Source: Archangium violaceum (lineage in GTDB: Bacteria; Myxococcota; Myxococcia; Myxococcales; Myxococcaceae). Taken from it: a DNA stretch of 64,000 nt. The stretch covers positions 1 through 64,000 of the forward strand of contig NZ_CP069396.1 in assembly GCF_016887565.1 (NCBI RefSeq). The letters run 5' to 3'. Below are positions 9,293 to 28,798 of the stretch, one piece after another. The translations under genes were made by a program, and so were the position numbers. The stretch's first letter is position 1; each line of letters begins with the position of its first letter. The notes below the pieces were generated by a model, which did not search any database, had not been told where the DNA came from, and saw only the letters and a list, made by a program, of their open reading frames with translations.

Positions 9293-10027
9293 CTACCCCG
9301 AGTCCCGCTCGCGCCAGAGGCGTCCGAGGACGTGCTCATCGCAGGAGAGGAGCAGGGGCGGCAGTCCCGTCCTCATCGCCGTCCCGTCTCGCTCGTCCAA
9401 CCAGCGACTCATCTGATTCACCCAGTGGCTGACCGCCTTGGGAGCGAGGTGGGGCCACACGAGCTCGGCCATTCCCCAGAAGGCCCGCTCCAGGGACTGG
9501 ACGAGCAGGAAGTGTCCGGGGAGGTCCGCCGCACGGGCCGCCCGCCGGAGCAGCTCGAATTCCAGCGCGACCCAACGCCTGTCGCCCTCGTCCCGTCGAG
9601 CGCCATCCTCCAGCCAGAAACAGGTCTCATCGAGCGGCTCACGGTGCTCCTCGGACACGTGCTCGCAGCAGCGCACCAGCAGCTCGACCGTCGTCTGCCG
9701 CTTGAGCTCGAAGTACCCCGCTAGCAGGCGCTGCCTTCCGGGTCGCGCGAGTGCCTCGGTATGAAGCGCCACGCTCAGGCTCTCGAGCGTCACGGCGCGC
9801 TCCAGTGCCACCGCACGTGCTTGTCGTCCCTGTCTCCGCACGACCAGGCCGCGCGCGGCCAGCCGCAGCAGCGCCTCCCGGATCGTCCCCCGCGCCACGC
9901 CGAATTGCCGCGCGAGCAGTCGCTCCGAAGGAAGAGTCCCGGTCTTGGGGTGTGCGCCTCTCGCAACCATGACCTCGAGCTCTTCCTCGATGTGCTCGAC
10001 GAGCTTCGTCCGCTCCCACCGCTCCAT
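9293..10027 (-). CDS. GntR/FadR-type transcriptional regulator
   Basis: The N-terminal winged helix-turn-helix is typical of GntR proteins: TLPSERLLARQFGVARGTIREALLRLAARGLVVRRQG at about 30-66, with the conserved (L)PSER and RGTIREAL segments. The remaining 170 residues are helical, with a DETCFWLED...WVALEFELLRRAA block, consistent with an FCD/FadR-type effector domain. Metal-binding His residues expected for FCD are not obvious. It stands alone, with egtD-egtB upstream in the same orientation but separated by about 320 bases. The 61-bp palindrome at 10193 lies in its upstream region and could be its operator, which is inference only. Confidence 0.85.
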   Translation of the reverse strand: MERWERTKLVEHIEEELEVMVARGAHPKTGTLPSERLLARQFGVARGTIREALLRLAARGLVVRRQGRQARAVALERAVTLESLSVALHTEALARPGRQRLLAGYFELKRQTTVELLVRCCEHVSEEHREPLDETCFWLEDGARRDEGDRRWVALEFELLRRAARAADLPGHFLLVQSLERAFWGMAELVWPHLAPKAVSHWVNQMSRWLDERDGTAMRTGLPPLLLSCDEHVLGRLWRERDSG

Positions 10028-10192
10028 TCAGTTCCTCCTCACCGCGGGGAGACTGACGTTGCAGCAGGCGGGCCAGACATCCAGGAGGCGCGGTTGCCTC
10101 TCCGGCTGTCCGGGGTGGGCGGCGTTCGGTGATTCCAGGATGCGGATGTCCGTCCAGCTTCGAGACAGCGTGCCCCGGATTCGAGGACCCCG

Positions 10193-10253
10193 CCGGGCGC
10201 GCGCGGCGCGAACTGGTCCGACCATCGGACCAGTTGCGGGAAAACGCGCCCGG
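10193..10253. repeat. 61-bp nested palindrome, copy 1
   Basis: Inner arms AACTGGTCCGA (10211-10221) and TCGGACCAGTT (10225-10235) are perfectly complementary around a 3-bp spacer. Outer arms CCGGGCGCG (10193-10201) and CGCGCCCGG (10245-10253) are also perfectly complementary. Copies 2 and 3 at 20769 and 28738 have the same total length and centre. This copy lies in the roughly 320-bp gap between egtD and gntR, which holds nothing else I can identify. Confidence 0.9.
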
Positions 10254-10346
10254 AGGGTCCCCCTATCGGAGCTGGCTCGGAGCCGCGCGCGCTACGGCCG
10301 TGCCACCAGGGCGACTCGCGTGGGTAACACGTGAGGCGCGGGGAGC

Positions 10347-11357
10347 TCAGCGCTTGAGGGCCAGCGAGAGCGCGAAGTCCCCCGCCGCGTCCGTCCAGCG
10401 CTCCACCAGCCGCAGCCCCGCTCGAGCCAGCTCCTCCTCCACCTGCTCCAGACGGAACTTGCAGCTCACCTCCGTGCGCAGCACCTCGCCCTCGGCGAAG
10501 TTCACGTACCTCTCCAGCACCGGGAGCCGCACCGTCTGCGCCCTCGTGGAGATGAGCCGCATCTCCACCCAGCCATTCTCCTCGTCGAAGGGCGCCAGGT
10601 GCTCGAAGGTCTCTGGCTCGAAGTCCGCCCCCAGCTCGCGGTTGAGCACCTTCAGCACGTTGCGGTTGAACTCCGCCGTCACCCCCGCGCTGTCGTTGTA
10701 CGCCGCGAACAGCCGCTCGCGGTCCTTGAGCAGATCCGTCCCCAACAGCAGCCCCTCACCCGGCTCCAGTCCCTCGGCCAGCTCCGCGTAGAAGCGCGCG
10801 CGCTCCGCCGGCTTCAGGTTGCCGATGGTTCCCCCGAGGAAGGCCACCAGCCTCCGGCCTCCCGTCGGCAGCCGCCCCAGGTGCCGCTCGAAGTCCCCCA
10901 CCACCGCGTGCACGTACAGCCCCGGGTACTCGCCCGCCACCGTTTGCGCCGCCTGTCTCAGGAAGGTCTCGCTCACGTCGAAGGGCACGAAGCGCCGGAG
11001 CGTCCCCGCCCTCCTCATCGCGTTGAGCAGCAGCCGCGTCTTCTCGCTGCTCCCGCTGCCCAGCTCCATCAGCGTGTCCGCCCCGCTCGCCCGGGCGATG
11101 TCTCCGGCGTGCGCCAGCAGGATCTCCCGCTCGCGCCGCGTGGGGTAGTACTCCGGCAGCCGCGTAATCTCGTCGAAGAGCTGGCTGCCGCGCTCGTCAT
11201 AGAGCCACTTGGGTGACAGCTCCTTGGGCCGGCCCTCCTCGCACAGCCCCGCCAGCACCTCCAGGTGCAGCGCCCGCCGCGCGTCCCCCGGCCGCACGTG
11301 TACCTCCACCCGTACCGGTGAGCGCTCCAGCCCCCACCCCGTCCACGCCATCTCCAT
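10347..11357 (-). CDS. egtD: L-histidine N-alpha-methyltransferase EgtD
   Basis: EgtD makes hercynine by trimethylating the alpha-amino group of histidine with three SAM molecules, the first step of ergothioneine synthesis. The 336-residue protein shows the family features: ELSPKWLYDERGSQLFDEITRLPEYYPTRRE (about 46-76), the SAM motif LMELGSGSSEKTRLLL (about 96-111), VPFDVSETFL, a FLGGTIGN loop, LLGTDLLKD, and the distal YNDSAGVTAEFNRNVLKVLNRELGADF stretch that lines the histidine site. Its ATG begins 3 bases after the egtB stop, so the two are coupled. Ergothioneine is a cytoplasmic thiol antioxidant. Confidence 0.95.
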   Translation of the reverse strand: MEMAWTGWGLERSPVRVEVHVRPGDARRALHLEVLAGLCEEGRPKELSPKWLYDERGSQLFDEITRLPEYYPTRREREILLAHAGDIARASGADTLMELGSGSSEKTRLLLNAMRRAGTLRRFVPFDVSETFLRQAAQTVAGEYPGLYVHAVVGDFERHLGRLPTGGRRLVAFLGGTIGNLKPAERARFYAELAEGLEPGEGLLLGTDLLKDRERLFAAYNDSAGVTAEFNRNVLKVLNRELGADFEPETFEHLAPFDEENGWVEMRLISTRAQTVRLPVLERYVNFAEGEVLRTEVSCKFRLEQVEEELARAGLRLVERWTDAAGDFALSLALKR

Positions 11358-20768: not shown

Positions 20769-20829
20769 CCGGGCGCGCCCGGCGCGAACTGGTCCGACAG
20801 TCGGACCAGTTGGTGAAGAGCGGGCCCGG
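20769..20829. repeat. 61-bp nested palindrome, copy 2
   Basis: Inner arms AACTGGTCCGA (20787-20797) and TCGGACCAGTT (20801-20811) around CAG; outer arms CCGGGCGCG (20769-20777) and the partly matching GCGGGCCCGG (20820-20829). Same length and centre position as copy 1. It lies about 70 bp upstream of the sigma-factor gene. Confidence 0.9.
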
Positions 20830-28737: not shown

Positions 28738-28798
28738 CCGGTCGCGAGTTGCGCCAACTGGTCTGACTGTCAGACCAGTTGAGAAAATTCGCGCCCGG
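28738..28798. repeat. 61-bp nested palindrome, copy 3 (covarying arms)
   Basis: Inner arms AACTGGTCTGA (28756-28766) and TCAGACCAGTT (28770-28780) around CTG. Compared with copies 1 and 2, position 9 of the left arm is T instead of C and its partner on the right is A instead of G, so pairing is kept. Outer arms CCGGTCGCG (28738-28746) and CGCGCCCGG (28790-28798). It lies in the divergent gap between the DUF2381 and S24-like genes. Confidence 0.9.

Follow-up and report, generated by a model that had tools for sequence, protein, structure and literature searches.

Three palindromes and a GntR gene

The window, that is, the whole stretch of 64,000 nucleotides of Archangium DNA that was analysed, carries three copies of a 61-bp palindromic element, none of which is assigned a strand. 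Copy 1 (10193-10253; core 10211-10235, outer boxes 10193-10201 and 10245-10253) lies in the tandem gap between a GntR-family gene and the next gene. Copy 2 (20769-20829; core 20787-20811, outer boxes 20769-20777 and 20821-20829) is located upstream of an ECF sigma gene, with its centre 54 bp beyond a gene end, while copy 3 (28738-28798; core 28756-28780, outer boxes 28738-28746 and 28790-28798) occupies a divergent gap. A sequence-only reading of this DNA had described the three copies as identical in length and centre, with perfect inner 11-bp arms, and both descriptions hold for all of them.

Aligned on its centre, the element comprises a 9-bp box CCGGKCGCG (-30 to -22), a linker, a 25-bp palindromic core (AACTGGTCYGACNGTCRGACCAGTT), a second linker and the 9-bp box CGCGMCCGG (+22 to +30), both boxes standing at a fixed distance from the core. 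By halves, the consensus of the core reads AACTGGTC-Y-GAC-N-GTC-R-GACCAGTT. The core pattern AACTGGTCNGACNNTCNGACCAGTT, with up to 3 mismatches, gives 6 strand-matches in the window, all of them within the three copies, whereas 100 dinucleotide shuffles of the window give a mean of 0.01, and not one of them reaches 6.

The gene beside copy 1 (9293-10027, minus strand), whose start codon lies 196 bp from the centre of that copy, encodes a protein of 244 aa with a wHTH domain (PF00392, 3.7e-14) and a C-terminal domain predicted to be all-helical, which we propose as the cognate DNA-binding protein of the palindromes. Pfam and NCBIfam searches with this protein returned families of DNA-binding regulators only, with no transposase domain, and in Pfam neither FCD nor FadR_C was recovered in the C-terminal part. 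Its AlphaFold model, of moderate confidence (mean pLDDT 73.7), matches the folds of FadR, NanR and VanR over the whole length, though with TM-scores by query length of only 0.33-0.51 among the 50 matches listed. Upstream of the gene, the minus-strand segment ATGTCTGGCC (10071-10080) looks by eye like a weak counterpart of a box, ATGTCAGACC, that precedes homologous genes, and it is a possible autoregulatory half-site. Along positions 9293-11357, gntR evolves faster than its neighbour, with a DNA identity to three relatives (G001, G002 and G004) of 72-73%, against 86-87% in the stretch that follows.

A dispersed family at gene ends

The expectation that further copies would be found across the genome was borne out: the 13.2-Mb single-contig Archangium genome contains a family of 66 sites with up to 3 mismatches, and the reversed-pattern control gives 0. 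The analyses of sites cover 59 of these 66, namely those with a listed place. In the relatives, a narrow core pattern misses variants with TTG or CTG, so a generic core was used instead.

Pairing between the two halves was analysed on the 59 aligned sites, or 56 rows once three of four near-identical MITE copies were dropped. Core positions ±2 to ±12 are invariant in the 56 rows except at ±4, a fixity that is partly built in, because the rows were picked with a core pattern. The ±4 positions pair at 70% of sites against 48% expected (p 0.0015), and their pairing is broken at 30%. The paired C-to-T and G-to-A change that had been reported in copy 3 is indeed present, 4 bp either side of the centre; since this is the sole varying pair within ±2 to ±12, however, compensatory change in the core is confined to one pair of positions. 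The outer arms, which had been described as pairing too, are conserved 9-bp boxes at ±22 to ±30. The linkers (±13 to ±21) are variable and pair at 12-70% of sites, mostly near the expectation for independent columns, with values above it at ±15 and ±16 and below it at ±13 (12% vs 49%), ±14 (23% vs 46%) and ±18 (18% vs 32%). To us, this pattern points to a protein site with two-fold symmetry on double-stranded DNA, and not to a hairpin kept by compensation, so that, of the two forms of selection suggested earlier, base pairing or two-fold symmetry, the second reads better.

Genes around the sites were called with a home-made codon-usage caller trained on the loci studied. No site out of the 59 lies inside a called gene; 21 are in convergent gaps, 35 in tandem gaps and 3 in divergent gaps, against 4.6, 30.2 and 24.2 expected by length from site-free gaps (a baseline that mixes the window, five loci of the same genome and loci of A. 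lansinium). Within the tandem gaps, 29 of the 35 sites are closer to the 3' end of the upstream gene, at a median of 70 bp versus 168 bp. The sites of A. lansinium are distributed as 14 convergent, 17 tandem and 4 divergent, with 2 at locus edges, and those of the Corallococcus loci as 16 convergent, 12 tandem and 2 divergent, with 3 inside genes and 10 at edges. The gene-end bias is thus seen in two Archangium genomes and in the Corallococcus loci.

Some palindromes are carried within larger units. An inverted-repeat variant of ~170 bp that includes the palindrome occurs at roughly 15 places, and a 284-bp MITE with the palindrome inside occurs at 4 loci (L017, L034, L053 and L055) in copies that are ~99% identical, with CTAGTGGAGTGTCC termini and ends CTAGTGGAGTGTCCGACAAG; half-sites of its TIR number 21 across the genome. 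We take a MITE with such TA ends to be IS630/Tc1-like. As in MITEs generally, the 284-bp TIR-bounded unit is too short for a transposase, and some gntR genes also sit within TIR-bounded units, of ~1.4 kb. The basic 61-bp element differs from MITEs in being conserved at its centre and not at its ends, and it has no defined target-site duplication: neither TIRs nor a clear duplication is seen in the alignment at copy 2. The site of copy 2 is empty in the three relatives aligned (G005, which is the closest, G003 and G001), while copy 3 is common to the genome under study and G005, where it has a different core centre. The suggestion of a REP- or MITE-like element is therefore upheld as regards dispersal, intergenic position, gene-end bias, the empty sites and the location of some copies inside a TIR-bounded MITE, but not as regards a link to RAYT transposases, since none of the 5 Y1-transposase genes of the genome has a site within ~1.5 kb. 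An origin in phages or plasmids was considered and rejected, as the exact core has no occurrence in IMG/VR and the GntR protein has no match in plasmids and phages at E 1e-15.

Gene and sites across genomes

Homologues of the GntR protein occur in 27 of 195 genomes of the phylum, all 27 in one family (f1). Among the 96 genomes of this family, the one under study included, 25 hold both sites and a gntR homologue, 4 only sites (G003, G005, G034 and G115), 2 only the gene (G083 and G084) and 65 neither, which amounts to the generic core in 29 of the 96 (the reversed control in 2) and the gene in 27; the Fisher test of co-occurrence gives p 1e-16, a value uncorrected for phylogeny. In genus g23 a single genome out of 27 has the gene, in one copy, and that genome alone has sites (12). 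The 16 genomes of genus g26, inferred from near-identical proteins to be Corallococcus, show a correlation of gene number with site number (Spearman 0.83, with gene numbers that are lower bounds where 28 candidates were scored): four one-gene genomes have 6-10 sites and nine genomes with 8-15 genes hold 100-272, the remainder being G075 (3 genes, 87 sites), G079 (4 genes, 21 sites) and G034 (no gene, 10 sites). The maximum of 272 sites in one genome is reached in G067.

Gene and palindrome are also neighbours in most of the lineages examined. In G067 (12 of 12 genes) and G077 (8 of its 9 genes), a palindrome is found 97-137 bp upstream of the gntR start at 20 of 20 loci, often with additional palindromes beyond it. 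All 4 Archangium genomes with gntR have an adjoining palindrome, and 3 of them (G001, G002 and G004) have one on each side; in G002 both flanking palindromes show a different near-symmetric core, AAGTTGTCCAACAGTTGGACAAGTT and AACTTGTCCAACTGTTGGACAACTT. G005 and G003 lack gntR at this locus, and a protein search finds no copy elsewhere in either genome. Palindromes that adjoin gntR could, of course, hitchhike with the gene.

In G018, G008, G084, G086, G112 and part of the g26 genes, the palindrome lies downstream, inside the tail of the gntR open reading frame, and 18 of 20 such palindromes, related copies included, share one phase. The common phase speaks for coding, whereas the codon score of the tails, low, mostly negative and well below that of the domain, speaks against ordinary coding. 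Read in frame after the GntR domain, the tail palindrome gives NLSDCRTG or NLSTCQTG (e.g. in L187, L198, L204 and L232). Palindromic repeats readable in frame inside protein genes are known as Rickettsia palindromic elements, which these tails resemble; the copies of the genome under study differ from them in being intergenic in 59 of 59 cases, the in-frame form being found only in gntR tails of other genera.

The two gene-only genomes depart from this association. No site with the generic core is present in G083, with at least 28 genes, or in G084, with 16, and a core-like palindrome (up to 3 mismatches) adjoins just 2 of 20 gntR genes in G083, which counts against a strict gene-site pair. 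Twenty of the G083 paralogues are 82-96% identical, in units that end near -94 and roughly between +400 and +570, several of which have, as read by eye, one of two kinds of inverted ends, CTAAGC..GCTTAG or TAAGGTTTGAGG..CCTCAAACCTTA, with unrelated outsides. From the identity of the paralogues, the inverted ends and the differing outsides, gntR itself appears to have spread as cargo in this genome, whose loci L210-L229 document an amplification of at least 20 times.

The wHTH of the GntR protein can be compared with that of FadR, whose operator consensus is given as the 17-bp AACTGGTCNGACCAGTT (PMC3626644) and whose residues Arg35 and Arg45 are described as reading two consecutive guanines (PMC4333415). 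Both ends of the palindromic core match exactly the halves of the FadR operator, and a phmmer alignment places residues 21-72 of the window protein on residues 20-71 of V. cholerae FadR; residues 36 and 46 therefore correspond to FadR 35 and 45. All aligned wHTH domains have Arg at residue 46. At residue 36, Arg is present in each of the 11 proteins next to palindromes with TGG (TGGT) in both halves, and in none of the 38 next to other palindromes. The latter show CTG, TTG, ATG, AAG, CAG, CCG or CGG in at least one half, and their neighbouring proteins have Gln, Ala, Val, His, Glu or Asn at this position. A partial exception is provided by two G008 genes (Gln36) with GG in one half (CGGTC). 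Furthermore, G004 (Arg36) and G002 (Gln36) each carry TGG-type plus TTG-type cores, and L185 (G016) and L188 (G068) have Arg36 with no palindrome in their loci.

Some of these labels were set by hand (4 of the 11 TGG and 2 of the 38 others): L192, with the half-site TGGTA missed by the automatic rule, and L110, L083 and L130, loci that were selected for AACTGGTC and hence are not blind, were set as TGG, and L213 and L228 (G083) were labelled among the 38. Loci L196 and L197, which hold the same genes as L242 and L230, were dropped from the trees and the residue table, and L186 from the table; rows in which no palindrome was recognised close to the gene (including most of the G083 rows, L185, L188 and L206) are unlabelled. 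When the wHTH columns are excluded from the tree (47 rows), residue 36 and palindrome type each change 4 times and all 4 changes coincide, although with four events the sign test (p 0.125) cannot reach 0.05. One of these switches took place inside the Archangium clade, in the G002 protein, which has Gln36 next to a TTG palindrome. Judging from the residues and bases involved, the direction and chemistry of the switches are as FadR would predict.

The pair is not classed as FadR, because its core exceeds the FadR operator by 8 bp. It shares with the FadR subfamily a wHTH with the equivalents of Arg35 and Arg45, a C-terminal fold that is all-helical by prediction and the half-sites AACTGGTC/GACCAGTT, but the core is of 25 bp and not 17 bp, with half-sites 8 bp further apart, the C-terminal domain lacks the FCD or FadR_C hit, and the sites stand at gene ends, in dozens to hundreds. 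The exact 17-mer AACTGGTCNGACCAGTT occurs once in 1.37 Mb of partly overlapping loci. Contracted 17-bp palindromes are present at L123:1941 and L247:2601, the first being AACTGGTCGGACCAGTT, the exact FadR consensus, and the second AACCTGTCGGACAGGTT.

The cores have also changed in concert at orthologous sites. The genome under study (G000), which retains gntR, and G005, which lacks it and carries putative ancestral cores, were compared at 11 orthologous sites with matching flanks, the doubtful pairs L059, L063 and L064 being left out of the counts. The two differ in 37 of 55 positions at the centre, ±1 and ±4, and in 3 of 220 elsewhere in the core (a figure biased low, since that core was used to find the sites), with 32 of 198 in the linkers and 10 of 198 in the outer boxes. 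At 9 of the 11 sites the centre is CCA or TGG in G005, as in most G001 cores, and at 9 of 11 it is CTG or CAG in G000, where T..A replaces C..G at ±4 in 7 of 11. Paired change at orthologous sites, whose absence, together with that of further copies, had been named beforehand as what would count against the observation, is found. Since the cores move together while the locus-specific linkers stay, long-tract gene conversion is unlikely, and the concerted change would be better explained by a reader that acts in trans and selects the cores, or by templated replacement of short tracts. Templated correction of a quasi-palindrome, considered as the source of the paired change in copy 3, could symmetrise the arms but would not explain how most of the 11 loci came to have similar centres with their linkers kept. 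The cores of G005 are well kept without a detectable gene, which means that either the loss of the gene is recent or something else maintains them.

The proposed reading and its alternatives

The reading that we favour, with a probability of about 0.8, is that the 61-bp palindrome is a REP-like, partly mobile site on double-stranded DNA for a coevolving FadR-like GntR protein, the one encoded beside copy 1. It draws on the observed family and its location, the co-occurrence and adjacency of gene and sites, the covariation of residue with base and the concerted change. An operator of a dimeric or tetrameric regulator was among the earlier suggestions, and it is the one that gains from the comparison of genomes through co-occurrence, adjacency and residue-base covariation; the regulator would probably be the product of the GntR gene that the sequence-only reading had already placed next to copy 1, which is the likely partner of the palindromes. 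We found no description of a GntR-linked myxobacterial palindrome family in the open-licence PMC literature.

According to this proposal, the GntR protein would bind the core as a FadR-like dimer or as a pair of dimers. Each half of the core contains a FadR-type half-site (AACTGGTC or GACCAGTT), spaced 8 bp further apart than in FadR, and the core therefore reads as two overlapping FadR-like boxes, which could hold two dimers, while the outer boxes may provide further contacts. Protein and sites would coevolve, with changes at the FadR-Arg35 equivalent coinciding with the matching base and orthologous cores changing in concert, and both sites and gene would spread in part as passengers of TIR-bounded, MITE-like units. 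Bound at gene ends, the protein might serve as a roadblock or insulator that holds back both read-through and convergent transcription, the role that we prefer, although we put it forward as a tentative one that is somewhat more likely to be wrong than right. One member of the GntR superfamily has been described as a DNA-looping tetramer in a paper that also refers to looped repressors as the stronger roadblocks (PMC7797058). A point against the main reading is that the operator of a transcription factor would be unusual at gene ends.

Among known systems, the closest likeness is to REP/REPIN-RAYT, described as many extragenic palindromes per genome, with a partner gene flanked by them and lineage-specific sequence variants that suggest coevolution (PMC3116915); the present system has many extragenic palindromes, palindromes beside the partner gene and variants that differ between lineages, too. 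It differs in having as its partner a DNA-binding GntR protein of the FadR type instead of a tyrosine transposase, in being conserved over an operator-like core of 25 bp and two boxes set apart from it, and in a partner gene that can be multi-copy (at least 28), whereas RAYTs are described as single-copy in the same account (PMC3116915). A further REP/REPIN feature is a tag of the GTAG/CGTC type (PMC3733652), and none was noticed, by eye only, beside the cores of the genome under study.

It is conceivable, if still short of an even chance, that the Myxococcaceae hold a REP-like system whose partner is a mobile, quickly evolving GntR protein in many copies, with a specificity that shifts jointly with hundreds of gene-end palindromes, and that this system makes up a genome-wide roadblock or insulator network at gene ends, dependent on the protein, which is at the same time like a selfish element. 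As a rule, bacterial operators are few and located in promoters, and repeats of the REP type are accompanied by a transposase. In the present case, dozens of operator-like palindromes are scattered over gene ends, and the proteins that probably read them come from a GntR gene family capable of moving as well. The joint switches of specificity, four on the tree, would make the coevolution of regulator and operator readable from genomes, and the palindrome-GntR pair offers a testable case of protein-dependent marking of gene ends in bacteria.

The main alternative to the roadblock role is a selfish gene-site pair, REPtron-like, that survives at gene ends: the palindromes would be non-autonomous mobile repeats and GntR their partner or regulator, with any host function incidental and the gene ends mere places where insertions are tolerated. 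We hold this to be possible, though on balance we doubt it. The multi-copy, dispersed gntR of G083, with several units that have inverted ends and differing surroundings, is what such a pair would produce, and so are the palindrome within the four-copy CTAGTGGAGTGTCC MITE, the empty site of copy 2 in the three relatives aligned and the many sites of the gene-rich g26 genomes. Less easily accommodated are the GntR protein without a transposase domain in Pfam and NCBIfam, the basic 61-bp unit without a clear target-site duplication at copy 2, the outer boxes that change less than the linkers at orthologous sites and the amplification of the gene in G083 without the generic core.

An ordinary metabolic regulon, with operators in the promoters of genes controlled by GntR, is unlikely. 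A FadR-like protein with FadR-like half-sites, and the possible autoregulatory box seen by eye upstream of gntR, would be at home in one, but the shortage of sites in divergent gaps (3 of 59 against the 24 expected by gap length), the proximity of 29 of 35 tandem sites to the 3' end of the upstream gene and the presence of up to 272 sites in one genome are hard to reconcile with it.

Also quite unlikely is an RNA element, either a terminator or a stabiliser of mRNA 3' ends, that works through a hairpin formed in the transcript. As expected of such a palindrome, the three copies fold strongly as RNA on either strand (z -5.5 to -7.7), and the tandem sites follow the upstream stop codon at a median of 70 bp, much as E. 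coli REPs are located past upstream stop codons. However, no Rfam family matches in the window, no T-tract was seen by eye, and pairing exceeds expectation at 3 of 34 offsets only (±4, ±15 and ±16), the other 31 showing no significant excess and three linker offsets a deficit. A transcript hairpin would also leave the correlation with a DNA-reading residue unexplained. The earlier suggestion of a structured RNA thus finds no support in the Rfam search or in the covariation, in spite of the folding of both strands.

We consider it very unlikely that the palindromes are chromosome-organising sites concentrated around oriC. There is a clustering of this kind, 24 of the 59 sites being no more than 1 Mb from the contig start, where gidB, parA and parB are located (8.9 expected, p 2e-6), with 21 of 37 sites of G001 in the quarter nearest the syntenic point. 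Nevertheless, oriC is placed here by gidB/parAB and synteny alone, and the MITE control (4 of 14 elements in that zone) includes too few elements to establish a specific bias, for which reason the clustering is not taken as main evidence.

Finally, a REP/REPIN family moved by a RAYT transposase, which the dispersed extragenic palindromes and the 5 Y1-transposase genes of the genome might suggest, is extremely improbable and was rejected, as none of the 5 Y1_Tnp genes is flanked by the palindrome (no core with up to 6 mismatches within ~1.5 kb, in loci of ~3.2 kb), and the link to a REP-associated tyrosine transposase that had been envisaged finds no support there. The five RAYT-like genes, open frames of 313-419 aa, are found at 153082, 3322612, 11015319, 12035252 and 12483539 (L133-L137). 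Near several of them, the translated flanks contain, by eye, TTCTTTGACACC-like repeats, which perhaps belong to a second, unrelated REP-like family.
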